Below, piece after piece: positions 1-52,896 of a stretch of 64,000 nucleotides of DNA (position 1 is the first letter of the stretch; every line of letters begins with the position of its first letter). Location of the stretch: NCBI GenBank assembly GCA_037042915.1, contig CM073198.1, forward strand, positions 4,216,001-4,280,000. The letters run 5' to 3'. This stretch comes from Auricularia sp. M13. Its lineage: Eukaryota > Basidiomycota > Agaricomycetes > Auriculariales > Auriculariaceae. A program made the translations under genes and the position numbers. Under the pieces are notes generated by a model, which was given only the letters and a program-made list of their open reading frames with translations, was not told the origin of the DNA and ran no database searches.

Positions 1-1795
1 ACCCTTCGCCCCCCCTATGGCCCCCGGCCCACTGTATATATCCCCCATGTTAGCTTCATGAACCATTCCGTGCGATTCTTGACCGAATCTGTATTTACTG
101 CAGTGAATGTCGATGACATGATTTGAGCATTGCCTGAACCGCGTCCGATAAACGCGCAAATTCACGAGCAGGCCGAGGACGCCGCGTTACATTCACGCGA
201 TTGCAGTCGAACCTGACTATATATCCTTGGCGAGCAATGCAGTGCGAGACGTGTTACGGATTCTGCTTTAGATGTGTTTGCGAGGACGGGTCCTCCTGGA
301 CCGTGAGGGAGAAAGGATTAAGCGCGTGGCCGACGCGCGAGAATGCCGTCTCAGACCTCAATATGCTGCTGTCTGCGTGATCTGCCGCTGCGTGCGTCGC
401 AGGCGCTGGAACGCGGTTTAAAGCGCCGACCGCAGGCATATCTGCGGCCGGCGGCAAGCGCCGCATGTTTCCCACCCTCACGTCCCAGCGCCCGCACTGA
501 GTTGTGCCGCGCGCCGACGAGAGCTTCTCGACGCTAGTGTACTGTGTTGTACCTCTAGCATCGTTGGAGTTCTGCATCGAGGACATTGGCGGCCTACCGA
601 CAGTAGAGGGCACTGAACGGCGCAACAGCAGCGCAAGCACGCCAGAGCTCAACTCCACGAGCGGTACCCCCGTACAGTGGGCTGCATGCAACGTTGCTGA
701 CGGCGCCGAATAGATTAAGACTTCGACGAGATCTTGTGGACGAGCACGCGACCGCAACGGTAAGTACTGGTGCTGCATCCATCGCGTCATTATCTCCCTT
801 CGACTTGGCTTCTTTCGTTGAGGGCCGCGCTCTCGAATGCCAGCGCGCTACGCACTGGCTTGTGCCGCCCGCTGGCGAGGGCTCAGCGGTAGTCAGACCT
901 GTACTGGTTGGTACCTCTGACGTTGACGACTTGGCCGTCGTTGTACATTCTCCCACCCGCGTTGCTCGTATCCATGAAAAAGTCACTCATAATCTTTACA
1001 GACACCCGAACGCGCACGACAGCCGCACACTCCAGCCGCGTCTGCAACTGTACGTACTTCTGCTGCGCCGCGTCATTCCTCGCACTTCGACTTGGCTTCT
1101 TTCGTTGAGGGCCGCGCTCTCGAATGCCAGCGCGCTACGCACTGGCTTGTGCCGCCCGCTGGCGAGGGCTCAGCGGTAGTCAGACCTGTACTGGTTGGTA
1201 CCTCTGACGTTGACGACTTGGCCGTCGTTGTACATTCTCCCACCCACGTTGCTCGTATCCATGAAAAAGTCACTCATAATCTTTACAGACACCCGAACGC
1301 GCACGACAGCCGCACACTCCAGCCCGCGTCTGCAACTGTACGTACTTCTGCTGCGCCGTCGTCATTCCTCGCACTTCGACTTGGCTTCTTTCGTTGAGGG
1401 CCGCGCTCTCGAATGCCAGCGCGCTACGCACTGGCTTGTGCCGCCCGCTGGCGAGGGCTCAGCGGTAGTCAGACCTGTACTGGTTGGTACCTCTGACGTT
1501 GACGACTTGGCCGTCGTTGTACATTCTCCCACCCGCGTTGCTCGTATCCATGAACAAGTCACTCATAATCTTTACAGACACCCGAACGCGCACGACAGCC
1601 GCACACTCCAGCCCGCGTCTGCAACTGTACGTACTTCTGCTGCGCCGTCGTCAATCCTCGTCGTCATCCCTCGCACCGACTTGGCTTCTTCGTTGAGGGC
1701 CGCGCTCTCGAATGCCAGCGCGCTACGCACTGGCTTGTGCCGCCCGCTGGCGAGGGCTCAGCGGTAGTCAGACCTGTACTCGTTGGTACCTCTGC
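1..1795 (+). repeat. Left long repeat arm with ~289-bp tandem units
   Basis: This is the inverted counterpart of 12615-14740. The outer ~250 bp (from the window edge) is matched base for base over long stretches by the complement of about 14490-14740. Segment 250-800 matches 13970-14490. From about 800 to 1795 there are three full units and one partial unit, with equivalent positions near 820, 1109, 1396 and 1695 (period about 287-300 bp). The period is not a multiple of three, so the long open frames across it are not one repeat protein. Because homology already exists at base 1, the arm probably continues upstream of the window. Segment 250-700 itself looks like an older, diverged unit of the same array. 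Confidence 0.93.
883..1566 (-). other. Recurrent 35-codon ORF, three copies in left arm
   Basis: Each tandem unit holds one short ATG-to-TGA frame pointing toward the outer end of the arm, at 883-990, 1170-1277 and 1459-1566. The peptides begin MSDFFMDTSN or MSDLFMDTSN and end RGTNQYRSDYR. Differences are single bases. It is too short to call coding on sequence alone. See the matching entries in the other two arms. Confidence 0.4.
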
Positions 1796-2061
1796 CGCCG
1801 TTCAGGACCGCGCGAGCGGCTGTCGTCCCTTCGTCTTCCGCCGTGCCCAGTATCGCGCAGTGTTACTGGTATTCATCTACGCTAAGATTTCCCGGAACTT
1901 GCGAACGACGAACCTCTCGCCCATCCAACCTCTCGATTCGCACTGTAAGTTTGTAACCGCCCTGCTCTGAACGCAACTGAGGTGGCGCTTGGGCCGCTGC
2001 ACAGCAACTCACGATGTCAACCGACGGGTGGCTGAACAATATTCAGAATCGGAGCTATGAG

Positions 2062-5000
2062 GACCGGGGTACTTCCAGCGATCGCATCGTGCCTGCTACC
2101 GTTGCACTGACGAGTACGGAACAGAACTGGAACCCCCCGAGGTGTTGGCGCGGAGTCTGCTGGAGTGGGAACGCGAGAAGTACGTCGCTGCGCTGAAGAA
2201 AGATGCTGTTGAGCGTGAGGCGGAGCGGCGCGAACGAGAGAGGACTCCGCCAATGGAAAGGTAGGCAGCTAACGTGTCGCGCATGCATGCATTTATCACT
2301 GGTACAGCGGGGCCGGCATGCCGTCGGCCTTCCTCTCGTCGACAGAGAAGGAGCTCAGATTGGTGAACCTGTCCACACTCGAGCGACCGACGCGACTGTT
2401 GCAACCCGGAGGCGTGCTAGACCCGGTTATGACGGGCTTTCTTCAATGCGTCAAAGTTATCCAGAAGACTGAACTTCTCCGGAAACGGCGCACGCCCCAA
2501 GTCAACGACGCACTCGTGATGGCGGAGACTCCATGGCGGGAGCCACCCAACTTCCCGTTCGACCATGCGCCCTGGCACGAGTGGTTGCTTAAGTCTCCTC
2601 CAGACGGCGCTGCGTCTGATGGGCGCTTCGTACTCGGGCCTATGCCTTTACCGCCGCCATGGCGCCCGGACCAGGCTCAGTTCACGAGCCCGGAGGACCT
2701 GCTGCACCATCTGAAGACGGACTGGCTTAAGGAGGCGGACGAATGGGTAGAGAAAACCAACCAGGACATCAGGATTGCGGAACTCATGACGGGTACTCTG
2801 CGGGAGGCGGAATCGCGCGAGCAGCAGGAAGAGGCGTATCGCAAGCGCCTCCCTCCGCCTCCGGAACCGCTCTCTGCAGCTCCCTATGTGCTGTGGAACT
2901 GGCTGCCGCGGGAAGTATACCGCAACGATCCCCTGGCGCCCACACTTCGGCGACACGGCTATTTCGTAGCCTACACGCTGATGCGAGCCCCGAGACCCAA
3001 CCCCAACGGTAACCTGGTTTACATACGGACGAACGTAGATTACATCCCGCCACTTCCGGCTGGCAAGCCGGCGAGACGACGGACAGATGGACGCTTCGGC
3101 CCCGCTGAAATATCAAGATACGCTCAGTGGCACCAGATCGGGCAGTGGCATGCGGCGTTCATCCCGATGATGCGCAAGGACGGTCTGCCGCACAAGAACG
3201 AGCACAGCAATCTGGAAGGCGACATAGCATGGTACATCCCCGACTTCACACAGCACTTCAGGCCCTGCGGGGATGACGCGTACTACCTCTCTCCCGAACT
3301 CGTTCAAGCGCTCATCGCCGCATGGAAGGTCGACTACGGGCGGTTCCAGAGTTTCATGAAGAAATATCCCAAGTTCGTCGGCCAGCCGTTCAACGCTGTC
3401 GCCCAAGCGAAACTGTCGCTCGACCTGCTCAAGCGTTGTCCACTTTCGCCGCGCGATATCGTCGAGGAGTTGGCGAGCTTTCAGCGCTGTATACTCGAGG
3501 TGCGAGGGTGGAACTCGTACCTGCGCTGCCGTCTCTGGCTGCGCGGGTACGAAGAACGACTCAGCAAGCCGTCGATCCTGCCCGCGGCGGACGCGCGCGA
3601 CCCCCTTGCTCGCCGTTGGACGCGCGGCGTGTTCACCGACGACATCGACGTCGCGCAGCGCTACGCGCAGTACGCCGTGCCCGTCTTTCATGTCGAGGTA
3701 GTCAACTCTGGCTTCAAGCCGCCTGCGGACCACTTTGTGCCGGAAGGGCCGCTATACATACCACGGCTGCTGGAGCTGCAATACGTCAAGGAGGCGTGGA
3801 ACGATATGCGCATGCTACCGCATGTGCGCGCCGTTCTCGAGGATATCAACCTGCATGGCGGCCAGCAGAACCCCGCGCCCCACCCGATAGAAGATGATCA
3901 GCCGGCGCCGCTCGACGACGAGATGCGGCCGCCGGACGATGTCATGATGAGAGACGATGTGCGACCACCGGACGACGACGTGGTGATGGGCGACGATTCC
4001 TTGCCGCCACCGCCGCCGCCGCCGCCGCCGCCAGAAACAGCGTCCGCTCCGTTGCCGACGATGCTGCCATTGGCGCCGGCTCCTTCAACATCCAGCAGCT
4101 CACAGCAGCCGATAAAGCGCAAAGGTAAGTTTACTATGGGCACACTCAGCTACCTATCTGATGGTCATGGAGTGATCGACTACAGCGACATCGATATGAC
4201 AAGGATTCGCGGAGCCGTCGAGAGGGCAGAGACTAGCGGGGGAACAAAACGCAAGCGGGACGGTAAGCACAGCTGCGCATAGCAGTTCAAGACGAATATT
4301 TACGCACGCGCGACTAAGCAGCGAAGATCAAGAACCCGCGGGACACGGGCGACAAGAAGCGCAAGACGAACAAGTTGAACGCAAGGGAGAGGCAACCTTC
4401 CGTGCTGCAGCAGAGGTTCCCTTACGGTCGGCGCCGCGACGGGCTTCCAGCATTGCCGGCATGGTGGCCGCAGCCGTGGGCTACGGCGGCCGAGCAGGTC
4501 GGTTTGACCCTGGGTCGGGACGAGGAGCGCATGAAGATGCTCAAGGACGCGCCCGACTTCCCCGTCGACCTGAGTGCAAATCCAGGACGGGAGCTACTGA
4601 TACCTGTCATGGAGCACCTTGTCGGCTTCGCAGGAGAGGAAAGGAAACGCTCATACATGATCGCGTCGTGGATAAGGCTCCGTCCGCATCGCATGCGGGT
4701 CCTGGCGACGCAGCCGGTGCGCGAAGTGACTACGTACACTGCGCGTAATTGGCGGAACATTCTGCGCAAGGTCATTCCGGCGGCGATGGATATCGAGTGG
4801 GGACTTCAGCTTGGACTGCGCCAGGAGCAGGAGCCCGCGCGCGTCGTTGTCGAAGACGACGACGAAGATGAGCAGCTTGAGGTGGAGATGGCGTGCGAAG
4901 CGTTGGTCTCTGAGGCGTCATCGGTCATATCCAGCGCGGCTCCATCAACGACGGCTTCTGCACCACCCTCGACAGCAGCGACGACGCAGGCCTCGTCATC

Positions 5001-6568
5001 GGACAGCGAGCACGAGCACTGGGAGGACTTGGACGACGACGACATAGACATGACGCGCGTCAACCCCGACGGCTCCGCCATCGCCGTAGTCAGTCAATAC
5101 TTCGAGCCGCAGATCGGAGGGCAGCGCACGGACGACGGCGAACTGCTGGCGGTGGAGGACGAGCGCTACCTGTACGAGCCGTCCGGCTGGCGATGGAAGA
5201 AGTTGGGCAACCAGCGCGGCTTACGGGAGTTCACCTGGTACGCGGAGGATGGCGCGGGTGACGACGGCGTCCTCGAGTTCAAGTTATTCGGTGCAGCCCA
5301 GCGCGAGGAATACGAGGACTACGCGCAGTGGTGGGACTACATGGGCGGTAGGATTTTTCACTTCCTCGACCACGACGGCATTCGCAAAGGTGGTGACTTC
5401 GCCGGGGAGCGATTGACGAAGCCGCTGCGCCTGTTCCACCAGGATGGGGCTCGGAGGCCCGTGTACGACTTTAACACCAAGGACAGCCCGTGCGGCTGCG
5501 TCTCTGGCCAGCGCAGGCATTCCGCGCACCGTGAGTACGCGATAAGCGCAAAAGAATCGTACTGACTGCAGCTTGTTTAGGCTGAAGGTACCGCACGATG
5601 CGCTGGGCGCTGTTGGCTCGCGCACTCGCAGCCAGAAGTTTGCTCTGCCGAACGGCGAGTATGAGAAAGTGTACCCCAATGCACCGCGGCCGGGGGGCAT
5701 TACACGGCCGCAAACTGCAGTGGCGAAGATCACTGCCCCTGCGCCGCCCTTGTCTTCCTCGTCGACCTCGGCGTCGTCAGTACCGCTGCCCGCACCACCC
5801 TCAGCGATGGCAGCATCCTCTTCCTCGTCCGCATCACCAGCGGCATCGTCGGCGGCGCAGCGTGAGACGCGAAGCGCCGCGCAACCAGCAGCGCCGTCCA
5901 CAAGTTCGTCGTCGTCGTCTGCGCCGCCAACGGCGGCGACCGCGGTCTCTTCATCGCCGACAACAACATATATGTCGTCTGCGGCGCCGCAAGCTGCGCA
6001 ACCGGCTGCTGCTGCCGCCGTGAGTGCCCCGACTCCATTGTACGACTTGCTGCAGCCGAAGGGCCCGATGTACTACAACGATCGCGAGCTGCCCGCGTTC
6101 GCGGGCACCCCGGACGCGAACTACTGTTGGCCGAGCGCAGAATGGAGGGCGCTCATTATTTGGGACATGGCGGAGCTCACTTTCCGTACGGCGCTGTTTG
6201 CGCTGGACGACTGTCTGCGGAGGACGTACACTTGGTGCAAGCCCTTGAACACGGAGACAGCGGTCCAACGCCAGAGTATGTTGTGCGCGATTTGGGGAGA
6301 TTCGTCATTTGTCCCGGACGGGCCGAGCCCTCTCACAGCGACGGACTGGCGCGCGCGACAAGACTCGATCAGAGCGTTTCACTGTATAGTGTCGACATGG
6401 CCGCGTGCCGCTCTACCATCTCCACCTGCTGCGTTCGACGATGAGGCGGACTTTGTCGCTTTCGAGAAGCAAGTCTGGAACGTATATACGCAGACCTACG
6501 CGGATTACTTCTTTCGGGAGCCCCCTGTCCCGATGCAGTACCCACCAGTTGTCCCGTGGTCCGAGTAG
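2062..6568 (+). CDS. Large Agaricomycete-specific family protein, at least 4 exons
   Basis: Function unknown. Exons that join in frame: about 2062-2260, 2308-4262, 4322-5534 and 5581-6568 (introns of 47, 59 and 46 bp; the last donor, GTACGC, is weak). From base 2070 this gives 1,448 codons without a stop. Visible parts: an N-terminal CYRC pair and a charged coiled-coil-like stretch; a central region with a MRAPRPN..WHQIGQWHAAF block and later RRWTRGVFTDD...YAVPVFHVEV, which I recognise from memory as the hallmark of a large family of hypothetical proteins in mushroom genomes; proline runs near 4008-4032; KRKR/KKRK nuclear-signal-like clusters around the third exon junction; acidic patches; a Ser/Ala/Pro-rich linker (5740-6010); and a C-terminal domain ending PMQYPPVVPWSE. 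The true start is unresolved: an ATG at 2014 is in another frame, and the coding frame meets TGA at 2058. It sits directly inside the left arm and is transcribed away from it. Confidence 0.8.
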
Positions 6569-7189
6569 GAACGTTTCTGGATATTTTCTGCCGTCTCTCA
6601 ATATATGTATCAGTTTCTTGAAACGGAATTGCGTGTCTTTGTTACTATATGGTTGCTGCTGAATCGAATTCAACGAATCTTGTAATATACCACTTGCATC
6701 GTCAGTCTCAACAGTCGAATTAACGTCATCCTGATAATATCGATTGCTACCTACTGTTCAACTGCCTCATCGAAATCTGGGGACGACCGGGGATAAGCTG
6801 TTGCGTTGAATACCGGTACCACTCGTGTTCGCCGCTCCACCCGGGTCCATTGCTCCCCTGAACCTGCGATTCACAAATACTACCCAGGCTTCGAGTGCAT
6901 TGGACTTCTCCGGGCGAGGAATTGGATAGGATGGATGTGGTACTTTGGATCGTCTCGTAGAAGTCCTCATCAAATAATAGTGCTGGTTTTGCAGCTCCTT
7001 TATTTCGTTTGATACCTCAGGCGTTGGCTATGGGATCGATTGAGTCGCATACAAAACGAAGTATAATGCGCGCACTGGGCTAACCGCGGAAGCACCGTTG
7101 CTGCGAGCTTGACTATGATTACGGCCTCGCCTGGAACGTCTACTCTGTTGAATTGATGTCATCGTGGTGTCGCATGCGTTCGTGACCGA
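6569..7189. other. Intergenic stretch, nothing recognised
   Basis: 3' flank of the large gene. Only short open frames without splice support; no repeat shared with other parts of the window was seen. Confidence 0.5.
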
Positions 7190-7637
7190 CGCACTGTGTT
7201 TGAAAGCGTCTCGAACCAGTTTGCGCGAGTTGGACTAGCTGCGTTTTGCAGGATCGGTGTCTCCGCCAGTTGGCTCCCTTCTGTCCCAACGTTATCCTCC
7301 GCACCGACCTCGTCGACATCTTCTTCCATCTACTTATGTCAATTAGCGAGTTCACAAACTCGGCGAGTTGACAATGCCTTGTCAGTGTCGGAATCTGTCA
7401 CAGTTCCCCACGATCCTGCATCCAGTCGTTGTCGAAGCTTACGGATGGATTTCCCGTATGAGACAGCATGAACTGAGGCTGCTGTGTGACCGGCGCCTGG
7501 GACCGAAGGAAGCCATCCTGGATATCCGGCAGAGCAGAGTGATTTTCGGCTGGCAGAGATTGATGATGATTCGCATCAGGGGTGACCGAGCTGGCCATGG
7601 CATGAGGCAGAATCGAACATGACTTATATGGTGACAC
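7190..7637 (-). CDS. Putative exon-bearing orphan gene, structure unresolved
   Basis: Two minus-strand segments look coding by composition. One, within 7398-7637, encodes a Gln/Pro/Ser-rich stretch (HHQSLPAENHSALPD). The other, around 7200-7335, encodes an acidic stretch starting MEEDVDEVGAEDN and ending near ANWFETLSNT, followed by a GTGCGT donor. A GTTTGT...TAG segment could link them, but I could not find a set of splice sites that keeps frame throughout. No family recognised. Confidence 0.3.
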
Positions 7638-7984
7638 GGGTTGATAAATTACGAAATAGGATGATAATAGATCAAGAATTCATATACTGACTCGTCACAG
7701 AAATGTGCGTAGAGTGAGGCAGGAGCGCACACAATATGCCGGGCATACTCTGCGAGTTATCTAGTACCCCTCACCTCGGAAACCTATCCGGTGAATAGAG
7801 TATTCCATCGGAGCGCACAACATTGATACAGGGCGAATGGTGGGACAGCGGCGCTCCGGTGGCGGGAGGGCGGGCTGGCAGATGAATCCCACCAGGGGCT
7901 CGCAACGATCGCACCGGAGGCGTGCGCATTCCGAATCGCAGTCGCGCCAAGCTCATGGTGCTGAGCGACTGTGAGCATGATACT

Positions 7985-8475
7985 GGGTCTTGCGCGATAA
8001 GCACTCACGCTTGAGGCGTGCGCCTGGACCTGCTTGTCGTTGGAATTGGCCGCGACCGCGGGTAGCTTGCGCAAGTTCGATTCCAATACCTACGACGAGG
8101 ACCTGCTGGAGCTGGCGCAGCCGCTGGCCCGGGCGCACGGTCGAACAGACCAGCAGAACGCGTAGCAGAGCTGGCGGCAAGGGACGCTCGGCACGCGCCG
8201 GACATTCCTTCGCTCCTACCAGCACGAGCGAGCAATATGTCCCTGGCCTGCTCGTGACACGCGATGGCCGATATCTCGGAGTCTTGCTGATTTCTCGGTA
8301 TTTCTCTCGCTGATTGCTCAGTACGTTGCCCGCCGCTGGCTCAATATGTCGCCCGTGTCGCTCGCGGCTCCAATACGTACCTGGCGCACAATATGACATC
8401 GATATCTCTAGGTCTTGCTGCTGACTCAATATATCACCGGTTCTGGTTCAATATGTCCCCGTGGTCGCTCGCAGC
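7985..8475 (+). repeat. Degenerate copy of the CTTGAGGC / CAATATGTC repeat family
   Basis: Contains ACGCTTGAGGCGTGCGCCTGG followed by GGACCTGCTTG, as in the 2.5-kb repeat near 16738 and at 23131. The tail carries scattered CAATATGTC motifs (8232, 8344 and 8450 regions) like the minisatellite tails of the better copies. It lies inside the 1-14740 block, so that block has been hit by this repeat family. Confidence 0.6.
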
Positions 8476-8612
8476 TTCGATACGCACCGGGCGCCCCCAG
8501 TAGTTCTTCCCCAACCCCAACACGAAGTGTTGAGTTTTGCACTAATCCATCATAAGGCTCGAGCTCCGAATCGTATTGATGTAAACTTGGTCTCATAACA
8601 GCATCAGCTCAT

Positions 8613-9245
8613 CTACATGATTGGCCCTTCTTGCGACGCAGCGGCTTTGACTACTTTGCGACGCTCGTCAGCCACTGCGTTACAGAGATGCAGAAATCGC
8701 GGCTGCGTCTTGGCCACCCCCCATACCCGCGAAAACAGCAAGCTGATCCGCGCCTCGCGTTCCCATTCGATGCTAGGATGTATGGCTAGAAGTTCGACCT
8801 CCGAGCTCCGCATGGCCCGTCGAAGTGCACAGCGGAACACCATAAACACATTTGCAGTCTGGCGCGATGTAGGCGGATCGTTGGCCTCCCAGTCTTGCAG
8901 CAATTCGCCTGACTCCAGGATGCGCAACGTCTCCGCGATGATGTCCGAATACACAGTTTGGCATATGTGCGTCCACACTGGCTGAGCAAATCAGACCTAT
9001 ATCGTCCGAAAAAGCTGAAATCGAATTACAGGTGACTCGAATGCCGAGTTCTCTCGCTGTGCTCGGCCGCGATGCCTTGCAGGGGAAGAGCCTAGAGCAC
9101 GGCTTTGACCAGACCGTCGTGACGACTTTGATACAGATACGCACCTGCTGGCTATTCTGATCTGCGGACATGTAGCCTGATTACTTGTTGTCGTGGCTGG
9201 AAGCCGGTAGGACAAGATTGTCGTAGCTGGAAGCGGGTAGGGCAA
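8613..9245 (-). CDS. Putative two-exon orphan gene
   Basis: Last exon 8613-8981 encodes 122 residues starting PVWTHICQTVYSDII and containing FRCALRRAMRSSEVELL; it ends at a stop at 8613. A GTAATT..CAG intron of 48 bp (8982-9029) joins it in phase 0 to an upstream open frame covering 9030-9245 (GRAQRENSAFESP at its end). No ATG begins that frame, so the real start lies further upstream or in a missed exon. A different-frame ATG at 9171 is less likely. No known domain is recognised. It is convergent with nothing obvious and lies inside the arm-flanked block. Confidence 0.45.
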
Positions 9246-9782
9246 GACTCGTGCAATGGAGTGGCCCTGTTTGTGAGCATATATGCATTTGCGTTGTTAG
9301 CTGAGTTCATGTCCACCACGTGTTCGCCAGGGGCGCATGGAATCATGTCATTCGGCCTGCCCGGTCCGAATACGCCGCGTGTACTTATGATAATCGAGAT
9401 CTTATCCCCGTCAAGATCCAAGCAAATGCAAGACGCCGTCCGAACGGTATGCCCCTTCCCTTACCGAGGCGTAGCAGCGGTCTACATAGTGCAGCGGGGA
9501 GGGTGAGGACTCGTGACCTCGCCGAGAATGCTGTGCGCAGTGCGAGTGCTTTGGTCGCCCATGTGCCTGGCTAACTCAATACGGACATATTGCGAGTACG
9601 CTGCTCGGTCCCCATTTGGACTAGCCGCTACTTAATCAGTCAGAACCGCGTAAGGCGTCGAACAAGCCAGATCTGCCTCGTGGCAACCTCGACGCGCGCA
9701 AGTGACTCTCAGTGCACGTTCCTATCTCCTGGCGTGTAAATGGCAGAGGCAGATCGCTCCTGCGAAATCGTCGCTTGCCGTC
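9246..9782. other. No confident gene; short tandem duplication at its edge
   Basis: A minus-strand open frame 9152-9421 (MDLDGDKISIIIS start) is exon-like but unsupported by splice sites. Around 9185-9246 a roughly 30-bp segment (TTGTCGTGGCTGGAAGC) is repeated in tandem with few changes. Confidence 0.4.
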
Positions 9783-10611
9783 ATGTCCCCAACTCGCTCT
9801 AAACCGCCCTCTTCGCCGACGACTGCAATGAAACGCGGCTGGAAACCTGCGACAGAGGAACACCATGCAGACCTTGCTGCTCTTAGCGACGGCCTTATCA
9901 CTAGCCTTCTATCTGCCTGTGGCAACTCCGGGACCATGATTGCTGTACGTCTTATCTAGTTCATTTGCTACGACGAAGCACTAGTACTGACGGTGCCATA
10001 GTCTGACGCGCCGTCTGGCACGAGCAGATCCCGCCGCAAGACGACGAGCCCACGCAAAGTCGTCGATCCGGAGACCGAGGTAATGTGAACTGCCGGACCT
10101 TTAAGAGAAGCCACTGACAATCTGTGAGGAATGCGACGGGCGGCCGATGAAGGAACTTGTGTCGGTGCGTTGCAAGTCGAGGTCTGCAAGACATTAACAC
10201 TCACCGACCAAGCTCGTTCGCCTTTTGCCATTTCGCAGAGATTTTGTCTGGGATCCAACCCCTCTGATTTTCGAGATCGTTTGGGTATGGGTCTGCATCC
10301 GCTTACTACACTGTTCTGCGCTGAAATTGAATGAATAGACCGTGGTTGCGCGCGGGTTCACGGCTCACGACATCCTAAGCATCACCATCATCACCGACAG
10401 GATCGAAACGGTGAGCTATGCATTAGGCTATCTGTAGACATTGAGTCTGACGAATCAGACGTATTCTGGCCCGCCGATCGCGTCCGGGGTGAGTGTAACC
10501 CCTTCATGTTATTTCCTAGTTGACGCGGACAAGATCCCGAACGCGACCTACCATTATCTGGATGACGTCGTATTTGAAGTCGAACTCGTCAAGACTAGGG
10601 TCGAGACGTGA
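9783..10611 (+). CDS. Seven-exon orphan gene, 179 residues
   Basis: Exons 9783-9944, 10002-10079, 10129-10175, 10239-10284, 10339-10410, 10446-10488 and 10520-10611 join in frame to a stop at 10609. The product starts MSPTRSKPPSS, has a basic SRSRRKTTSPRK segment, then MKELVSVRCKDFVWDPTPL, TVVARGFTAHDILS and ends DDVVFEVELVKTRVET. No family is recognised and no signal peptide or membrane helix is evident. Donors include GTACGT, GTAATG, GTCGAG, GTATGG, GTGAGC and GTGAGT. The fifth intron would be only 35 bp, short even for a basidiomycete, so that junction is the weakest part. Reading frame is preserved across all six introns, which is hard to obtain by chance. Confidence 0.6.
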
Positions 10612-10859
10612 TAATGTACACTGAAATACACGGCCTTTGTAAAGACTCGATGGATTAATATAGTCCCCCTCTCACGAGCTTATCAAATCGAAACCTCAGT
10701 GCGCATTATTCGAAATTATTTACATAATCATGATTGGACATGAAGACGAAAGTCTATCAGCAACCGATCCCACAACGTAAAATGACCCGAGGCTCAGGCA
10801 CTGCCGCAAGACTCTGAAAACCTGTTTCCTCCTCCGACACGTTCGCTTGACCATCTCTC

Positions 10860-11376
10860 ATGTCGACGCAAAGTTGCAAGCCTGAGAGCCTGGGGCAGGA
10901 AGAAGTTCAGCGCGAGATCCCGCCACCACCCGACTCGTATGCTGCCCACGCCGCTGAATTACCGCCGCCCGAACCTCGTATCTTCGCTGCTAGTGACTCC
11001 CTGGCGATCAGCCTACTGCGCTCCTCAGAAAGCCCGACAGTTCGACAGCGGAATGCACACTTCCGCGAGGAAGTGCGAGCTCTAGCGGTCCAGGTTCGTA
11101 CGTTGCGCAGCAAGATAAGCCTTGTACTACCCATATGCCTAGAATATGGCTCTCGACGAGGAAGCGTGGGCCTGTTATAGGAAATTGGTACGCTCATCAG
11201 TACTCGTGGAGCTGGAATCTCGAGTAATGCTCCGACAGAGATCTATTCAGATAGCATACGTGGAGCTCAGAGGGAAATACGAGGCTATCAAGCGCGAGAT
11301 GACAGGTTTGCCTGCCGCGGGAAGAGCGGGCGGAGGAAACCAGACTTCGGGGAAACGGAGAGCGTCTGCCAAGTGA
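10860..11376 (+). CDS. Three-exon orphan gene, 138 residues
   Basis: Exons 10860-11093, 11143-11187 and 11239-11376, with introns of 49 and 51 bp (GTTCGT..TAG and GTACGC..CAG), both phase 0. The product starts MSTQSCKPESLGQEE, has a Pro-rich REIPPPPDSY stretch, a likely helical middle (FREEVRALAVQ, NMALDEEAWACYRKL, AYVELRGKYEAIKREM) and a basic tail ending GKRRASAK. No domain recognised. It is 250 bp downstream of the seven-exon gene on the same strand. It could be an orphan or a rapidly evolving nuclear protein; nothing here decides. Confidence 0.65.
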
Positions 11377-12179
11377 TGACAGTGGAGACCAGCGTAGTTC
11401 TCGAATTGGGTGAATGAAACAGTGTACGAGCCTGATGAACTCGTCTACGTGTTGGCCAAATGCACAGACTGAACACAACGAAGGACAGTTGCTTAGCGGA
11501 TACCTGGACCACTCTCCTTGTGGGAGAATTACCCCGCCTGTGGGGTACTTTTGCCTGCTGACACCGCTACCAAGTTAAGGCGGTCTCAGCGACTAAGTCA
11601 TGTAGCGACAAGCAAGATAGTACAAAATTACTGTGATACTGTACCATTACGACCATTTATTCATCTTATCAGAAAAATCTAATCTGATGAAGCTCCGATA
11701 AGTAATCGGAGGCGATTTCTGGTATCTAACCTTTTTCTCGTAGGCCAGTGTTACACGTTACAACGAACATATGGTCGTAATGGTACAGTTCGGAGCGGAT
11801 GTACGGTCTATCTTGTAAGTCTGGCAGGCGGCACGATGTCAAATGGGTACGTGGGCATGAGGAAGATACTACACGGAATCGGGACAGGTCGAGACGGAAA
11901 TGCGGCGCGAATGCGATGCAAGACGAGACGCCTGGTGAAGCAGACGCGCGGCACATGCAGAATCCTCATCGTGCGCATGAGACAAGTAAACGAGCCCAAA
12001 AAAGTCTCAGGAGGGGTGTCTGGCAATGTACGCCCAGCACTGCGCCGTCAGCTGGCCGCATTGCAATGCCATCACGCTGTGTGCTCGACTACGGCCGGGC
12101 GGCGGGGCATGCAACATGAGCATCGGACACATGATTAATCGAGTGGGGTGGTCGAAAGAGGCAGATGTTTTCGGCTATT
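11377..12179. other. No gene recognised
   Basis: Open frames at 11799-12138 overlap on both strands and show no splice or composition support. Motif CGACCATTTATTC/ATGGTCGTAATGGTACAG occurs as a short inverted pair near 11650 and 11770. Confidence 0.45.
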
Positions 12180-12540
12180 AAGCCTGACAGCACGAAGCTC
12201 CCCGCTCCTCTCTCGGCATCTCACGCTGCGCACGTGACGATGCGCTGCTGACGCGGACGACAACAGGGTGGTTCCTGTTGCTGAGGGTGGTGCGGGCGGC
12301 GGTCCTCCCGGCGGAGGTCGGGTGAAGTTGGGCGCGTCTTTGAACATTGTATGCTCCTCATCCCGACGAAGGATTAAACGATCTCCTCGCCACGGGAGTC
12401 CGAGGCTGCGGTCACCATTCCGGCAACGATGGCTACCCGTCGCGGCGCCGACTGTAAGGGGCCGTTGCTGCTGTACGGCAGGATTCCTCTTGCTCGGATT
12501 CGACTTATTCAGGGTGCCAGGGCAGATGGTCGAACGGAAA
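12180..12540 (-). pseudogene. Internally deleted inverted remnant of the large family gene
   Basis: Read on the minus strand, about 12320-12540 matches 4345-4575 of the large gene. The shared bases include the run encoding RRDEE...M(F/L)KDAP and the CAGTCGGCGCCGCGACGGG block. About 12200-12310 matches 5785-5885, in the Ser/Ala/Pro-rich linker. The 1.2 kb of gene between these two pieces, and the 5' half of the gene, are missing. It lies immediately inside the right arm, just as the full gene lies inside the left arm, so the arm-gene order is conserved in inverse orientation. Similarity is clear but well below identity, so this is a diverged paralogue rather than a fresh copy. Confidence 0.75.
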
Positions 12541-12614
12541 CGCCACGGAGGCATCAATTTCACGAGCGCGTGGTTGACGTGGGCGCGTGCGCTGAACCGG
12601 AGGAGGTCAATATC

Positions 12615-14740
12615 AACAGACGCGGGCTGGAGTGTGCGGCTGTCGTGCGCGTTCGGGTATCTGTAAAGATTATGAGTGACTTGTTCATGGATACGAGCAA
12701 CGCGGGTGGGAGAATGTACAACGACGGCCAAGTCGTCAACGTCAGAGGTACCAACCAGTACAGGTCTGACTACCGCTGAGCCCTCGCCAGCGGGCGGCAC
12801 AAGCCAGTGCGTAGCGCGCTGGCATTCGAGAGCGCGGCCCTCAACGAAGAAGCCAAGTCGAAGTGCGAGGGATGACGAAGTGCGAGGATTGACGACGGCG
12901 CAGCAGAAGTACGTACAGTTGCAGACGCGGGCTGGAGTGTGCGGCTGTCGTGCGCGTTCGGGTGTCTGTAAAGATTATGAGTGACTTGTTCATGGATACG
13001 AGCAACGTGGGTGGGAGAATGTACAACGACGGCCAAGTCGTCAACGTCAGAGGTACCAACCAGTACAGGTCTGACTACCGCTGAGCCCTCGCCAGCGGGC
13101 GGCACAAGCCAGTGCGTAGCGCTGGCATTCGAGAGCGCGGCCCTCAACGAAGAAGCCAGTGGGATGAGCGAGGATTGACGACGGCGCAGCAGGCAGTTGC
13201 AGACGCGGGCTGGAGTGTGCGGCTGTCGTGCGCGTTCGGGTGTCTGTAAAGATTATGAGTGACTTGTTCATGGATACGAGCAACGCGGGTGGGAGAATGT
13301 ACAACGACGGCCAAGTCGTCAACGCCAGAGGTACCAACCAGTACAGGTCTGACTACCGCTGAGCCCTCGCCAGGCGGCACAAGTACAGTTGCAGACGCTG
13401 GCATTCGAGAGTGCCCTCAACGCGAAGCTGAGGGTGCGAGGAATGACGACGGCGCAGCAGAAGTACGTACAGTTGCAGACGCTGGCTGGAGTGTGCGGCT
13501 GTCGTGCGCGTTCGGGTGTCTGTAAAGATTATGAGTGACTTTTTCATGGATACGAGCAACGCGGGTGGGAGAATGTACAACGACGGCCAAGTCGTCAACG
13601 TCAGAGGTACCAACCAGTACAGGTCTGACTACCCTGAGCCCTGAGCCCACAAGCCAGCTGGCATTCGAGAGCGGCCCTCAACGAAAGAAGCCAGTGCGTA
13701 GCGCGCTGGCATTGACGACGGCGCAGCCTCAACGAAAGTTGCAGACGCGGGCTGGAAGTTCGGGTGTCTGTAAAGATTATGAGTGACTTGTTCATGGATA
13801 CGAGCAACGCGGGTGGGAGAATGTACAACAGCACCAACGTCAGAGGTACCAACCAGTACAGGTCTGACTACCGCTGAGCCTCGCCAGCGGGCGGCACAAG
13901 CCAGTGCGTAGCGCGCTGGCATTCGCCCTCAACAAGAGCCAAGTCGAAGGGAGATAATGACGTCGATGGATGCAGCACCAGTCTACCGTTCGGTCGTGCT
14001 CGTCCACAAGATCTCGTCGAAGTCTTAATCTATTCGGCGCAGCCCAACGTTGCATGCAGCCCACTGTACGGGGGTACCGCTCGTGGAGTTGAGCTCTGGC
14101 GTGCTTGCGCTGCTGTTGCGCCGTTCAGTGCCCTCTACTGTCGGTAGGCCGCCAATGTCCTCGATGCAGAACTCCAACGATGCTAGAGGTACAACACAGT
14201 ACACTAGCGTCGAGAAGCTCTCGTCGGCGCGCGGCACAACTCAGTGCGGGCGCGCTGGGACGTGAGGGTGGGAAACATGCGGCGCTTGCCGCCGGCCGCA
14301 GATATGCCTGCGGTCGGCGCTTTAAACCGCGTTCCAGCGCCTGCGACGCACGCAGCGGCAGATCACGCAGACAGCAGCATATTGAGGTCTGAGACGGCAT
14401 TCTCGCGCGTCGGCCACGCGCTTAATCCTTTCTCCCTCACGGTCCAGGAGGACCCGTCCTCGCAAACACATCTAAAGCAGAATCCGTAACACGTCTCGCA
14501 CTGCATTGCTCGCCAAGGATATATAGTCAGGTTCGACTGCAATCGCGTGAATGCGACGCGGCGTCCTCGGCCTGCTCGTGAATTTGCGCGTTTATCGGAC
14601 GCGGTTCAGGCAATGCTCAAATCATGTCATCGACATTCACTGCAGTAAATACAGATTCGGTCAAGAATCGCACGGAATGGTTCATGAAGCTAACATGGGG
14701 GATATATACAGTGGGCCGGGGGCCATAGGGGGGGCGAAGG
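12615..14740 (-). repeat. Right long repeat arm, inverted copy of 1-1795
   Basis: This arm contains five tandem units, whose shared GAGCCCTCGCC core falls near 12777, 13083, 13362, 13640 and 13877, followed by the same distal segment as the left arm in inverse orientation. Several units carry deletions, so spacing shrinks from about 306 to 252 bp, and this arm is more eroded than the left arm or the copy at 46 kb. The last base aligned to the left arm is about 14740, which pairs with base 1 of the window. The true outer end therefore lies somewhere between 14740 and the next repeat at 14805. Confidence 0.93.
12672..13877 (+). other. Recurrent 35-codon ORF, five copies in right arm
   Basis: Copies lie at 12672-12779, 12977-13084, 13255-13362, 13531-13644 and 13779-13877. 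Three are full length (35 residues, TGA stop). The fourth has lost the usual stop and ends a few codons later. The fifth carries an in-frame 9-base deletion and keeps the same start and stop. All begin MSD(L/F)FMDTSN and contain GGRMYN. No Shine-Dalgarno-type argument applies in a eukaryote, and no transcript evidence is available. Confidence 0.4.
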
Positions 14741-14913
14741 GTCAGAGACTCGGATTATCGTTTGAAAACACGTCGTAAGGTCGCGGCGCCCATGTAAACA
14801 TCCAATACAGCCTACGCATCACTCTCCTCGCTTTCCTCTACGTAAAACCAATGTTTCGCGTCGTCCTTTCGCGGCTACGGAGTGAGTGAGTAGAGGAAGA
14901 GTGAATATTGCGA

Positions 14914-15279
14914 TTAACGCACCAGGCTACGGCACTTCTTCGTTGCATGGCTATGCATGTTGGCGAGTTTGACCCAGCAACCGCACGCATCGCACTGGCC
15001 GTTTGCTCCGCGTACGGAGCGAACCTGAGCGGTGACATCTTGGGAGACCACTGTGGGGGATGCGGCTCGGTCTGAAGCGGAGACGCGTCGCGCAGGAGAG
15101 CGCAGCGAACGAAGGTGTCGGCCAGCAGGCAGGTTCTCGCGGCTTTCTCCAACATCTTGCTCGGGTGCGACGGTACCAACGACGCCGGGCGAGAGCTCTG
15201 ACGACCGACCCGACGGGTCCGTAGGCGTGGTAGAGATGATCTGGGTCTCGGGCTGGACCATGTCAGCATGAGGAGACAA
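14914..15279 (-). CDS. C2HC zinc-finger-like ORF in 2.5-kb repeat, copy 1
   Basis: A 121-codon frame with a Ser/Pro/Thr-rich body and a C-terminal CDACGCWVKLANMHSHATKKC block, that is C-x2-C...H-x-H...C, a plausible zinc-binding module. It ends CRSLVR at a stop at 14914. The copy at 52897-53262 differs by only a couple of residues. It is probably the last exon of a longer gene whose upstream exons would lie at about 15.5-16.2 kb, but I could not join them with confidence. Family unknown; a nucleic-acid-binding role is only an inference. Confidence 0.45.
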   Translation of the reverse strand: MSPHADMVQPETQIISTTPTDPSGRSSELSPGVVGTVAPEQDVGESRENLPAGRHLRSLRSPARRVSASDRAASPTVVSQDVTAQVRSVRGANGQCDACGCWVKLANMHSHATKKCRSLVR

Positions 15280-15555
15280 GCAAGGTTACACGCACGCGAC
15301 CGACAGGGTGCGCGCAAGACGGGGGTCGGGATGACTCGTCGGTTGCGGTGCAGGTCCGCTGGTGTATACAGGCGACTACGTCAAAGTTAGCCAGTTGCTC
15401 GTAAAGAGGACTAGGATCCGCAGACGAACCCGAAGCCAGTTGCTACGTTCAGAGTCGGTAGGAGGCAAAGAAGGATGAGGATGATAGATGGTGCCGAATG
15501 CCGGAGAGAGCGGGTGGAACGGCGGTAACGCCTTAACTGGCTCCAGAGGCAGAGG

Positions 15556-16241
15556 CTACGGAATAATGAGGTTAATCGAAGGAGCGCAAGCGACCAAAGA
15601 CGCGACATACGGCAGGTGGCCGCGACAGACTGGGCTGATCGACCGGTACCATCGGCGCCGGACGTAGGTGGATGAGGTTGGGGGAAGCGGAGGGAGCAAC
15701 GCGCAAGGTGGGAGTGCGCTGACCGGACGGGCGAAGACGAGCGGACTGTACAACATTAATCGAAGTCGGGAGCGAGCGTAGGCGCGCCAACGTACCATAT
15801 CCTCAGCGGGTGCGCGGTCATGGTCGAGCATAAGCGGGCTGGGCAGCCTCGGCGGTGCTGGTGGCTGCAACAGAGACGGAGCGAGACCGGCGGCGTGCCG
15901 GGGCCGATCGAGCGTACGAGGTGTTGCCGCAGGCTTGTCGAGAGGTTTCAAGCGGGGCAACTGAAATGGAATTCGGTCAAGATGGAAGGGCGGGAGAAAT
16001 AGCGAATGTGGACGCACCACGGGCTGCTTGTAGTGCTTTGCGGTCTGGGCCGGCGACTCTGGCGACGGCGACGGTGGCGCGGCGGCGGGTTTTCGTAGTA
16101 CAGACGGTGATAGGTCCGAGGCGACAAAGCCGGGGCGTGCCCAGGCTTTGAGAAGGCCGGGGGCGGGGGCGGCGTAGCAGGCGCGGGCGCGACCGGGCTC
16201 TGCGCTCGAGGTGAGCTACAGACGGGGCAGGCGAGCGGCAA
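15556..16241 (-). pseudogene. Pro-rich ORF of the 2.5-kb repeat, frame broken in this copy
   Basis: Counterpart of the single open frame 53540-54226. In this copy the frame is split into 15948-16241 (starting MPLACPVCSS) and 15556-16020 (ending ACAPSINLIIP) by a small indel near 16070, where the other copy has two extra bases. Proline- and arginine-rich composition, one CPVC pair, no recognised domain. Confidence 0.4.
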
Positions 16242-17185
16242 CTAACCGATGAGGCGACGGATACCGCGCTCGACACGGCCCAGTGAGGTGTTGGCGGCCG
16301 CGCGAAGGAACGCGAGGGCGGCGAATGTACCGTCGGAGGCGTTCTGTGAACGGGGAGAACAGAACGCTGGCGCGAGGTTAGCATTTGAAGCTTCAGAGGA
16401 AGTGAACGCTTACGCGACTGAGTGCCGGAACGGCCGGGTAAGACAACTGCTGGCTGTAAGAAACAGCGGGCGCTGCCGTCAAGGGCGTCGTGTCGCGGTG
16501 GTGGAAGGAGGCCTGCTGCGACCGGAGGTGAATGCGCGTTGGCCGGAGACATCACACGTACCGGAAGCCGCGCTCGCACGCTGTCCTCGCCGTCGACCGG
16601 GTTTACGAGGACCATCGACGACTGTCGGCCGCCTGGCGCGACGACGGCGTGCGCATTCATAGTCCCGGTCGCGCCGGACTCGGTGTGCTAAGCGCCGGTG
16701 AGCAAGAGGGCCGACTCTGGCGAACGAAAAGAGCTCACGCTTGAGGCACGGGCCTGGACCTGCTTGCGATGGGAACGAATCTTGAGCATGTGGGCCTGCG
16801 ATTCCTTGGCCGCATTCGCCTACGACGGGATATTGTCAGCAGCGACCAGCCAGGCGACTGCGCACACGCACGATTTTTTCGCTATGCTCCCGTTTCGGCG
16901 AGAGCGACGGCTTGGGCGAGTTGGAGTCCATTGCCATGCAGTCTGGTGTAGACGACGGTTCCCCAGCAGAGGCCCATTCGCGGCCTTATATACGACTCGG
17001 CCCACATTCTGGCAGTGGTGCAGACCCTGGCTAGGGCGCGGTCGAACAGATTAGGCACGGCGGGCAGGACGGGCAGCAAAGCAATATGCCATCGTGTACG
17101 AGGACAAGCGATACCCGGCACGTGCCGCTCTTGACAATAGGTCCCTGAACTTGCACGTGCCCCGCACATGTCGCCTGCGGTTTGC

Positions 17186-17325
17186 TCAATCCTTGCTCAA
17201 TATGTTGCTGCGTCTGGCCCAATGTGTCGCCCGCGTCTGGCTCAATATGTCGCCCGCGTCTTGTTCAATATGTCGCCCGCATCTGGCTCGATCTGTCGCC
17301 CGTGTCTTGCTCACCATGTTCCTGG
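17186..17325 (+). repeat. CAATATGTC minisatellite, copy 1
   Basis: About five imperfect units of roughly 24 bp with core CTGGCTCAATATGTCGCCCG. It forms the 3' end of the 2.5-kb repeat and is shared with arrays at 55170-55306, 24395-24485 and 40370-40450. Confidence 0.8.
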
Positions 17326-17336
17326 CCTTCCGCGCG

Positions 17337-18031
17337 GCGCGCTCGTACAAGCTTTCCCGGCTGCTCAATACGCTTACCCCTGGCTGCTTTCTTCCCTTTC
17401 TTCTGCTGTCCTTGGCGTGGGCCTCGCGCGAACAGCCAGACTCGCTCGCTACCTCCGCTTTGCCTTCGCGCGTCTCTCACTTGCAGCACAAAGTCGCTTG
17501 CTTCATCATGCCTTGCAATGTCTTGCCCTCTCTCTCGTCTGGCGCACAGCGCATCGCCTTGTTCGACGGTCTCTGGCCGCCGCCCGGTGAACTGTCTTTG
17601 ACGCTCTTTCGCTCACGCCTCACTGCTTCAATCGGCCGTTCCCAAGCCTACAGTATTGTAACTCCCGCTCGCATCGTCGACCGAAGCCGGCCAGCCCGCT
17701 CAGCCGGGATATGACAAGAATGTCCCCGGACTGGGGTCGCCACCGCGGTTACGCCGCCGGTTATCTTCCGTCACCGGCCGGAGGTCGAATTCACTCCCGA
17801 TACCTCCGTCTTGTGCATATGAAACACTCCCCCCCCCCCCCCAAGTAGGTACACGCTGTATCTCGAGAAAATTAGCCCCGCGGTGTCTCCGACGTTGATA
17901 CCTGGGCTCGAACAATCCACCAGCAATGTGTACTACAACTTGCACTTCGACGGCGATCGTGGGCAACAACGCAGTCGTCGCCGTCATACGGACCTGATTG
18001 AAGCGGCAATACAGGTCTCGCCGACTCGAGA
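17337..18031. other. No gene recognised; C14 tract
   Basis: Contains a run of 14 C at 17829-17842. Open frames are short and overlapping on both strands. Confidence 0.5.
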
Positions 18032-18490: not shown

Positions 18491-19320
18491 CCATTACGGC
18501 GAAGATGCCAGGGCGACGCGGACGACATTTGGACCGAGAACATTGTCCGTGCCGCCCATGCATGCACTCCAATATGGTTCTGACAGCTTGCTAGCTTCGG
18601 GCAGTTCGTCCATGTCAACTCCAAGAACTTGTAATCGCACATCACAACACCAATGAGCAGCAGCCGACCATCCCGGTGTCAACCTTGCCGATGGACTTCT
18701 TCTCCTGCGTCGTATTCCTCCGCGCAACCTCTCGCCCACGCGTTCACGCTCCCCGCAGCCTCAGCCGTAGCCCCAAGCGTTCAACTACCAGGCCCAGGCG
18801 ACGAGCTCGGCGCGGCGCTCGCCCGAGTTGCCAGCGTCGTTGAATCCGTTTGCGGACTGCAAAGCACGCACAGCATGCCGTCGCCCGCGGTGCCGAGCCT
18901 GCAGGTGCGACGCAACGGACAGCTCAGGTGGAAGACCTCTCGACCACTTCGACCCGTTCCAGCTCTTTTTTACCAATGTCATCCTCAGCTTGCCCCGCTC
19001 AAACTTCCGCTCGCGCTCGCCCCAGCCACATCGCGATCGCACCGCCGTGCGCCTCAGCCTTGCGCCCTTCTGCTCCTCGCGCCTCGCGCTTAACATGGTC
19101 GATCTGCTCTTGCTCCTCGCGACTCGCATGCTGAGCGCGCTTCTCCTCGTCGTACTGCTCTCGATTTCCTCCCGACGCGCACCTGCTCAGCACGCTTGTG
19201 ACGTTCTTCAGCCTCGCCGCAGCCGCTCGCGCTTTGCGGGCTGCACAGGAAGAACGTGTTCGCTCCAGCGTTGCGTTGCACGGCTTCCCCGCACGCTCAT
19301 AAATCTGCCAGTGCGACTGC

Positions 19321-19795
19321 CGCCCGCAGTTCACGCAGATCACGTCCGACCCGGAGTTCGTCGATGTCACGGGCAACGAGCTCAAGGACCTCCAGCTGAC
19401 CGGCCTCGACTGGCTCGCGTATATCTGGTGGTGAGAACGGCATCCTGGCCGACAGGATGGGTCTCGGCAAGACGATGCAGACGTCTATCGTCGTACCTCG
19501 TCCACCGCATGCGCCGGCTCGGGCCCTTCCTCGTTATTGTCCCGCTGTCGACCGTCTCGGCTTGGAAGGCGACGTTCCAGAACTGGGTGCCCGACCTAGA
19601 CGTCATCACTTACAAGGGCAACGGGCGCGCTCGCAGCATGTTCCGCCGATACGAGTTCGGCCAGACGGGCGGCCACAAAAAGCCACAGCTCAAGTTCAAC
19701 GTGCTCCTAACGACATACGAACTCGTGCTCAAGGATGCGTCCGAGCTTTCAGGCATCAAATGGCTCGCGTACGCAGTTGACAAGGTGCGTTTCAT
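19321..19795 (+). pseudogene. CHD1/SNF2-like ATPase fragment, broken
   Basis: Matches, from memory, the start of the SNF2 helicase core of CHD1-type remodellers. In order: PEFVDVTGNELKDLQLTGLDW (DFQLTGLNW-like) from 19321; GENGILADRMGLGKTMQT (Walker A region, with Arg where DEMGLGKT has Glu) from about 19431; then LGPFLVIVPLSTVSAWKATF and FNVLLTTYELVLKDASEL to about 19780. These lie in three different frames: a stop follows IWW at 19432, and further shifts separate the other pieces. After AYAVDK there is a GTGCGT donor-like site and no DEAH-box continuation. Only part of lobe 1 survives, and the upstream chromodomain part and helicase lobe 2 are absent. Clearly a non-functional relic or captured fragment. 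Confidence 0.85.
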
Positions 19796-19970
19796 TTTTG
19801 ACTGTCCTACTGTGCTCTGCAACCGAGCGCTGATTGATTCTTGTCGGTCGTTGGCATTGTATTCGATCGCTGCGCCTCAGAGACAGTGCAAGACGACATG
19901 GACCAGCTTGCACTGCGTCCAGCCTGTACCTAGTCAGCGCCGGCCTCCGCGAGCCCTTACCGCCAGCTGA

Positions 19971-23190: not shown

Positions 23191-23449
23191 CCTACGGTTA
23201 CACAGAAGGTAGACGGATTGCATCTGGCGCGCGATCTCGGCACCGATTTGCGTGACCCATTTCTGCGAAATTCAGCGCACGTCCGCATGGGTAGGATATG
23301 CGGGAAAACTGACCGTCAAACAGCAGCAGACCCGACAATAGCCCAACCTCTCGCACGCTCCGATGTCGGCACCGCTGTCGGCCGCGACGTCGTAGTGCTG
23401 GCGCGTGTTTGCAATGCGGTGTGTCGAGTCGACCTGCACGAGCGACCAT

Positions 23450-24500
23450 CCTGGGCTCCGTCATCTCGCGCCGACAGGACGAGTATAAGGCGCGGACCCA
23501 GCATAGTTTTTGCCAATTTGGTAGTCGTGGGGGCGAGTCGGCGGGCGGCGGCCGCGACGGGCGTTCCCTGCGGTAAGCATGAGTCTTTCAAGTAGATACT
23601 GTAATGAAGGTGGTTGCGATACCTACCTTGTGTTGAGGGATGCTGTAGTGGACAGAAAATGGGGCCCGTTTCACCTCGCCCGAGGCGGCAAACGCGCTAT
23701 GGAGCGCGCCATTGCCCGCGGAGAGAGACGTTCACACCGCGACCTCGTGAACGCGCCGGATGTGGCCATCGGACGATGACAGGTCACGTGGTGGATGACG
23801 GGGAAGAGAGCTCACGCGCGGAAGCCGGCGTTGGATTCGGTTCTGGAGACGGACAAGGTGGCTAGCGTACAGCGAGCCGTTCATCCAGGCAAACCGGAGG
23901 GTGTCCGTCGACTCGGGCTGGCGCGTACCCATCGGCGTGCCTGAACGAGACGCGCTATCAGATTCGCGCCCGCGCCAGAGTCATTGCGCTAGGCGTCGGT
24001 GAGCAAGAAAGCAATCCTGGCCTGCACAGAAACTCACTTGAGGCTCGCGCCCAGGCCAGCCTTCGGAGGCGGCGAATTCTGACAACAGGCCAGACGGCTG
24101 TGAGTCGATTGCGATGCAGTCGGTTTTAGACGACGGTCCGCCAGCACAGTGCACGCTGGCGGCGACCGCGTGGTATGTCCGGACTGGCACAGGGCCCAGC
24201 TAGAGAGCACGCCGTCGGCGGGCAGCAAGCGGTCGGCCGTCGCGCAGCGGCGAAGCAATCGCGTGGAGGTGACGCCCGGCGTGTGCCGCATGCTCCTTGC
24301 CCCGTAACCAACATGACCAATATGTCCTGGCCTCGCACGTGCCCTCCGGCAGCCCAGTATCCTGTCTGTGGCTGATCGATCCGTTGCCCGGGGCCTGCTT
24401 TGTTCAATATGTCTGCCCGTCGCCTGCTTGCTCAATATGTCTGCCTGTCGACCGCTTGCTCAATATGTCTGCCTGCCGCCCGCGTTCAACTACAGATGAT
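23450..24500 (+). repeat. ~1.05-kb repeat, left member of inverted pair
   Basis: Matches the complement of 40345-41402 almost throughout. The outer edge is at about 23450 (CTGGGCTCCGTCATC) and the inner edge at CAACTACAG near 24494. It includes a CTTGAGGC module (24028), a run of CAATATGTC units (24395-24485) and unrelated GC-rich sequence. Open frames in it (for example RYCNEGGCDTYLVLRDAVVD) are conserved in both copies but differ at their ends, so I do not call them genes. Confidence 0.92.
24395..24485 (+). repeat. CAATATGTC minisatellite in the 1.05-kb repeat
   Basis: Three units of about 27 bp with core GCTTGCTCAATATGTCTGCC; the inverse array is at 40370-40450. The same core word forms the tail of the 2.5-kb repeats. 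Confidence 0.8.
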
Positions 24501-41402: not shown

Positions 41403-41410
41403 TACGAACT

Positions 41411-52648: not shown

Positions 52649-52896
52649 AGGCTATTGGCCCGTGAGAGATATCCTCAAGTGCTTACTCTATATCAACGCT
52701 GGGCGAGCCGGGGCCAAAGGGCGCGGCAAGGAGCTGGATATTTGATACAATGCGAGTTGGGGCCTGCACGAAAGAAATTGAAGTCGATAAACAGCCTACA
52801 CATCACTCTCCTCGCTTTCCTCTACGTAAACCAGTGTTTCGCGTCGTCCTTTCGCGGCTACGGAGTGAGTGAGTAGAGGAAGAGTGAATATTGCGA

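Follow-up and report, generated by a model that had tools for sequence, protein, structure and literature searches.

Does a large gene that stands behind an arm of tandem repeats in the genome of the basidiomycete Auricularia sp. M13 belong to a mobile element, and do gene and arm move together? The 64,000-nucleotide stretch analyzed here (the window; C6:4216001-4280000 of the 52.1-Mb, 14-contig assembly GCA_037042915.1) contains three such arms, one intact gene, and one decayed gene, in which a preliminary description, made from the letters alone, had seen the pattern of autonomous and non-autonomous transposon copies. We favor another explanation, to which we give about an even chance: the gene would be linked to a transposon, would possess its own 5' recognition or control region, and would have been spread anciently, with parts of its neighborhood, to seven places where selection has kept it.

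At the left of the window, a tandem-repeat arm lies 5' of a gene of ∼1,450 codons, as had been described. The arm (382-1797 (+)) consists of a conserved core with two dyads (479-575 (+)), a spacer, and an array with 3.4 copies of a 289-bp unit, each containing a looser form of the core dyads (798-1794 (+)). Its near-identical copies extend to window position 1 and, with the duplicated stretch, ∼2.5 kb to the left of the window. The intact gene (2014-6568 (+)) has one or more uncertain 5' exons followed by E2 (∼2308-4262), E3 (4322-5489), and E4 (5581-6568), across which the frame is open; the introns (2261-2307, 4263-4321, and 5490-5580) were placed by eye, and the frame of the first exon is uncertain. 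When five loci were aligned, identity was 0.62-0.76 at ∼1881-2057, 0.7-0.95 across most exon sequence, and 0.47-0.65 in low-complexity parts, and it fell below 0.35 from ∼6697, 130 bp past the stop codon (6566-6568).

Searches with the family protein returned no match in Pfam or NCBIfam, nothing usable among PDB sequences (best expectation value (E) of 0.34), and no relatives in a scan of viral contigs. The structure models were weak (mean predicted local distance difference test score (pLDDT) of 58 for E2 and 64 for the end of E4), PDB fold searches yielded nothing at E ≤ 0.001, and no title or abstract from literature searches described such arms or this protein family. We take the left gene to be a complete member of a large and so far undescribed superfamily of fungal proteins, with E2, E3, and E4 as the conserved parts.

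Tandem Repeats Finder placed three arrays with a 276-289-bp unit in the window (798-1794, 12880-13925, and 45984-46896), and pairwise comparison shifted the start of the middle one to 12617 (12617-13925, with a unit spacing of 239-305). The second arm is inverted (12617-14742 (-)). The third, at the place near 46 kb where it had been reported (45978-47490 (-)), is 97.9% identical to 206-1724 and has no detected gene, so the proposed conservation of arm-gene order is true for two of the three arms in the window.

Across the genome, this order is kept by every close copy of the gene. A probe with the core had 30 matches, all at arms (24 arms plus 6 extra copies, each opposite in orientation to the neighboring arm; all genome match lists are lower bounds), and the arms fall into seven clusters: A, which includes the window (C6 4.12-4.31 Mb, 7 arms), B (C6 0.64-0.71 Mb, 3 arms), C (C3 30-77 kb, 3 arms), D (C12 576 and 673 kb, 2 arms), E (C1 8.88-8.90 Mb, 3 arms), F (C10 2.86-2.88 Mb, 3 arms), and G (C9 3.22-3.24 Mb, 3 arms). 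The 74 matches of the 289-bp unit likewise all lie inside these clusters. Each cluster (7/7) has one close gene copy, on the same strand as one arm and immediately behind it. One other arm adjoins the decayed gene of the window, one (C3:30 kb) is followed by a first-exon region, and no gene was detected at the remaining 15 of 24. Every arm (24/24) lies less than 100 kb from a gene copy.

The wider family comprises ∼50 scattered loci. Among these, 44 more distant loci have no arm, and another search adds four weak ones; a few distant loci fall inside the stretches that clusters B and D occupy, none of them adjoining an arm. Arrays are thus mostly found where no gene is detected, an outcome that the preliminary description had named as telling against an arm-gene element, and the second such outcome, genes without arrays, is the rule in the wide family and is seen in none of the seven close copies. 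A purely subtelomeric family was considered and dropped, since the distance of a cluster to the closer end of its contig ranges from ∼28 kb (A) to ∼0.77 Mb (F). No exact run of four TTAGGG repeats occurs anywhere in the assembly; chromosome ends may be absent or trimmed, or the telomere repeat may be a different one.

The core is conserved far above its surroundings. Its dyads are GCAC-N6-GTGC and, ∼45 bases further, GTAC-N6-GTAC, and versions of both are present in the array units. Mean pairwise identity among clusters, taken in 30-column steps, is 0.80-0.85 at 422-476 and 0.89-0.95 at 489-546, and it drops to 0.80 at 561 and 0.48-0.58 from 576 onward, which leaves a core of ∼100 bp. The last array motif stands 228-271 bp from the conserved ATG in 5 of 5 loci measured; in cluster C, core and array are ∼1.6 kb apart. 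The aligned motif copies (91, of which 56 are distinct) show no covariation, and folding the 56 distinct motifs produced a single 4-bp stem with no covariation gain. Because of this lack of covariation, the dyads resemble DNA-binding sites more than RNA stems, and we regard them as putative DNA-binding sites. Structured RNA genes found no support as an identity for the arms, there being no covarying stems and no Rfam match in window 1-2300 at E values up to 1; a tRNA scan also found nothing.

The right-hand unit had been described as an inverted arm beside a diverged, internally deleted copy of the left gene. An inverted arm and a decayed gene are indeed present, but the gene consists of three fragments (12216-12608 (-)): a short piece of E2 (∼12608-12513), a piece of E3 with stops (12510-12315), and a piece of E4 (∼12320-12216). 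Identity of the E3 fragment with the cluster genes is 77.5% for G, 76.6% for D, 75.5% for A (the window gene), 73.4% for F, and 73.0% for C (145-204 columns), and this nearly equal distance from all five compared clusters dates the remnant roughly to the time when the clusters split. The arm beside it is 91-100% identical to the left arm: 1-1797 (+) and 13045-14742 (-) are 91% identical by pairwise alignment, and the left and middle arms form an inverted repeat with 100% identity between 1-491 and 14252-14742 and between 488-696 and 14045-14253. An old remnant next to a young arm indicates separate histories for arm and gene and speaks against a derivative formed recently by internal deletion. 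With gene pieces at 73-77% and an arm at 91-100%, a simple inverted deletion copy of the left unit is ruled out; judged by these identities, the right-hand unit pairs an old decayed gene with an arm that was recently copied or overwritten. Since the genome protein searches missed this remnant, further small remnants may exist beside arms that appear to be solo.

Copying in cluster A extends beyond the arms. An 8.2-kb stretch is copied at 99.4% identity, and a 2.5-kb block upstream of an arm has six copies, the window's own and five others that match it at 98.9-99.6% identity; four of the six adjoin arms directly, and two lie ∼5 and 10 kb away from theirs. On the evidence of these identities, the arms of cluster A have recently multiplied along with other DNA. 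Scanning the open reading frames (ORFs) of this cluster (141 pieces from 154 listed ORFs, those of arm and gene excluded) gave single matches to Transposase_21/Plavaka, CxC2 (KDZ-associated), RNase H, SNF2, F-box, and others, and the protein-family scans of these ORFs and of the family protein revealed no known transposase joined to the arm-gene unit. Two of the six block copies lie in the window (14807-17339 and 52791-55319, 99.2% identical), and the block includes a shorter repeat that is present at additional places in the cluster. The window also contains matching short tandem arrays of 23-28 bp (17195-17313 and 55179-55297), an inverted 1-kb repeat (23448-24495 and 40354-41403, 99%), and an ORF with an SNF2-related helicase domain (18771-19967 (+)).

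No sharp ends are common to the arm-gene copies. The 3' sides lack a shared terminus: homology past the stop codon ends after 43-77 bp in pairs of A with other clusters, with an extra piece to 139 in the A-C pair, and it reaches somewhat further past the gene in the D-F pair. The 5' limits of contiguous homology between clusters are staggered. At loci D and F, no direct repeat of at least 8 bases was found across the limits, and hence no target duplication, and inverted matches of 8-10 bases were unordered and formed no useful inverted repeat. The loci compared thus gave no sign in their sequences that arm and gene now move by themselves.

Neighboring sequences are in part common to different clusters. 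In this comparison only long matches were counted (>300 bases, plus an adjoining piece in F and G), the short matches with low E values being noise from linked high-scoring segment pairs. Clusters C and G have a common stretch 0.3-1.3 kb downstream of the gene (65-67% identity), present twice in G and also found past the solo arm at C3:30 kb, on its downstream side; a stretch downstream of an arm is common to A and F (68%); and F and G have genes upstream of an arm in common, with their order kept (F:2455-4462 versus C9b:7001-9000). These shared neighbor genes favor a copying of neighborhoods that were scrambled later. An ORF with an integrase core (rva_4) near the genes of F, E, and G was not counted, as it occurs elsewhere and has the opposite direction in G. 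The C/G stretch has a long opposite-strand frame rich in hydrophobic residues (L032:1-1040 (-), L030:2540-2950 (-), and L029:1330-1830 (-)). F-box-type genes stand close to arms in clusters A (two), D, and F (L027:4711-6387 (-); C12:576477-578325; L012/L013; L016:6593-8470), and the 5' end of such a gene bears an inverted core in clusters D and F.

Mobility is evident in another branch of the same family. A sister subfamily with the same three-part protein (27-29% identical to the window type in E2 and E3 and 35% in E4) has 12 dispersed copies on 9 contigs that are 98-99% identical over a 1.2-kb probe. All 12 carry the 1.5-kb 5' flank, one of them over 1-1235 only. With a 3' probe (87-98% identity), homology ends at base 1152-1153 in 10 of the 11 other copies; in the eleventh it breaks off at 1050, the remainder lying 8.7 kb off. 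In all seven junctions where the right end was read, it is TCTAACATATCTG, followed by unrelated DNA; only the right end is covered by these readings. The stop codon of the sister gene lies 287 bp before this end, the last stretch of the element contains six TGGGAG motifs versus 0.07 expected, and two copies of a 141-bp repeat precede the gene. Dispersed near-identical copies with an exact right end demonstrate that the sister subfamily is a mobile element and that the protein family includes a real one. The 3' flanks of window-type genes contain the end motif no more often than by chance and no TGGGAG-like repeats. One sister copy is at C3:441600-447351, with the others at 11 places (L041, L046, L047), and cluster G contains a 77% match to the sister 5' flank that, judged by eye, resembles a small insertion with palindromic sequence.

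The close gene copies are maintained by selection. Gene comparisons covered the five genes of clusters A, C, D, F, and G, and their 10 pairs (1,367-1,380 codons) have ratios of nonsynonymous to synonymous substitution rates (Ka/Ks) of 0.25-0.43, with Ks of 0.17-0.44; these five genes are under purifying selection. In copy F, both E2 and E4 appear to be frame-shifted. One TGA each was reported in the E2 matches of clusters B and G, although G has none among the codons compared for Ka/Ks. The arms group in keeping with how far the genes have diverged (D with F, B with C, G outside), and the B and C arms have zero differences across 310 bp. Two solo arms depart from this: that at C12:576 kb, in cluster D, groups with A-type arms, and in F the third arm is not close to the other two. 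A 7.7-kb stretch that extends 2.2 kb beyond the last arm is 99% identical between clusters E and F (C1:8877065-8884755 and C10:2877300-2885000), which reflects either a recent interchromosomal duplication or an assembly effect.

These results do not support an autonomous and non-autonomous pair in the window: loci D and F yielded no target duplication, the copies lack common termini, the remnant is old, and some clusters share neighbor genes. A tie between the family and mobile DNA holds through the 12-copy sister element, which has a defined end where the arm-gene unit has none, and not through the pair in the window that had suggested it. That arm and gene nevertheless form an autonomous element of a new class, with the protein as its mobility factor and gene-less arms as non-autonomous copies, is in our view very doubtful. 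The sister's mobile element does encode the family protein and does have a short tandem repeat 5' of its gene, gene-less arms do outnumber those with a gene, and two arms do sit in the "wrong" cluster; yet no 3' end is conserved, the 5' limits are staggered, arms occur solely within 100 kb of a gene copy, large flanks were copied along, and an old remnant adjoins a young arm. We give a similarly slight chance to the proposal of an undescribed class of eukaryotic mobile elements in which the three-part protein alone provides mobility and has core and array as its recognition sites; window-type loci would then be old or tamed members whose arms still spread locally through the protein. The shared neighbor genes weaken both proposals and strengthen the idea of an ordinary host gene family that has a minisatellite as promoter and was copied from chromosome to chromosome along with its neighborhood; its link to the sister branch would be ancient and without meaning today, and its solo arms would be left-overs from copies since lost. 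Such a family would also fit the purifying selection in 5 of 5 genes, the near-identity of E with F and of B with C, and the missing termini; it seems somewhat unlikely to us, as arms without a gene persist at 15 places, their core being unusually conserved, and the wider family is scattered over ∼50 loci, one branch of which multiplied recently.

An accessory gene of a known DNA transposon (e.g. Kyakuja or a CACTA-like element), whose protein would help or shield the element while a known transposase lay in the left part of the sister, is improbable. The sister element ends in ...CTG, and Kyakuja and most CACTA-clade elements are described in Kojima 2025 (PMC12730594) as having 5'-CA..TG-3' ends; the subterminal TGGGAG motifs and the Transposase_21/Plavaka-like and CxC2 ORFs of cluster A point the same way. 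Two terminal bases are weak evidence, however, and no known transposase was seen joined to the arm-gene unit. The transposon-linked gene with its own 5' region, which we prefer, agrees best with the other suggestion of the preliminary description, a family-specific 5' region duplicated with the gene, which fits better than a mobile element. Several points weigh against our preference. Apart from the shared neighbors, contiguous homology between clusters comprises arm and gene only, as a bounded transposed unit would also produce; the link to mobility comes from a distant branch whose identity in E2 and E3 is ∼28%; that the protein binds the arm is guesswork, as no function was found for it; and the two solo arms that group outside their own cluster suggest that movement or exchange of arms can take place independently of the gene.

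Under the reading we prefer, the arm would be the gene's own 5' control or recognition region, made of a core of ∼100 bp and 3-5 looser tandem copies of the paired dyads. The family may have arisen earlier from a mobile element and would then have spread chiefly through segmental duplication and ectopic exchange of neighborhoods in transposon-rich islands, and the arms may have multiplied locally through duplication and exchange. The family protein, or a partner, could bind the dyads of core and array, acting either on expression of the gene or on movement of the element. A family of ∼50 loci with a mobile branch and no Pfam or NCBIfam model would fill a gap in fungal transposon biology, its protein being new either as a mobility enzyme or as an accessory factor. 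The core, present solely at arms, offers a direct binding test. Should the protein bind there, one could go on to test the idea of a mobile-element family that possesses a control region of its own and has in part settled down as seven genes kept over a long time.

Several known systems share features with these loci. The Kyakuja/KDZ transposons of Agaricomycetes, which are marked by a KDZ transposase and a 7-bp target duplication, are also mushroom mobile elements that carry extra proteins, and the sister element ends in TG as they do (PMC12730594). In contrast to them, the window unit has no such ends and no KDZ transposase was seen with it; of the sister's two ends, the right one was read. 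CACTA/EnSpm-type elements have subterminal repeats that are bound by a TnpA-like protein; the sister likewise has short repeats near its end, and a repeat array adjoins the gene, but no CACTA transposase and no protein relation were found. Same-strand repeated arms around the gene in some clusters recall long terminal repeat (LTR) retrotransposons, but the two arms flanking the F gene are ∼73% alike and are not each other's nearest relatives; arms as LTRs were ruled out, arms 2 and 3 of F being ∼73% identical and arm 3 and the B/C arms ∼79%. In expression-site families, genes are fronted by repeats, with one full copy plus solo arrays. The window loci differ from these in that neither switching nor a telomere link was seen and the protein is unrelated, but they have the same arrangement, an array directly 5' of one gene per cluster with solo arrays around it.

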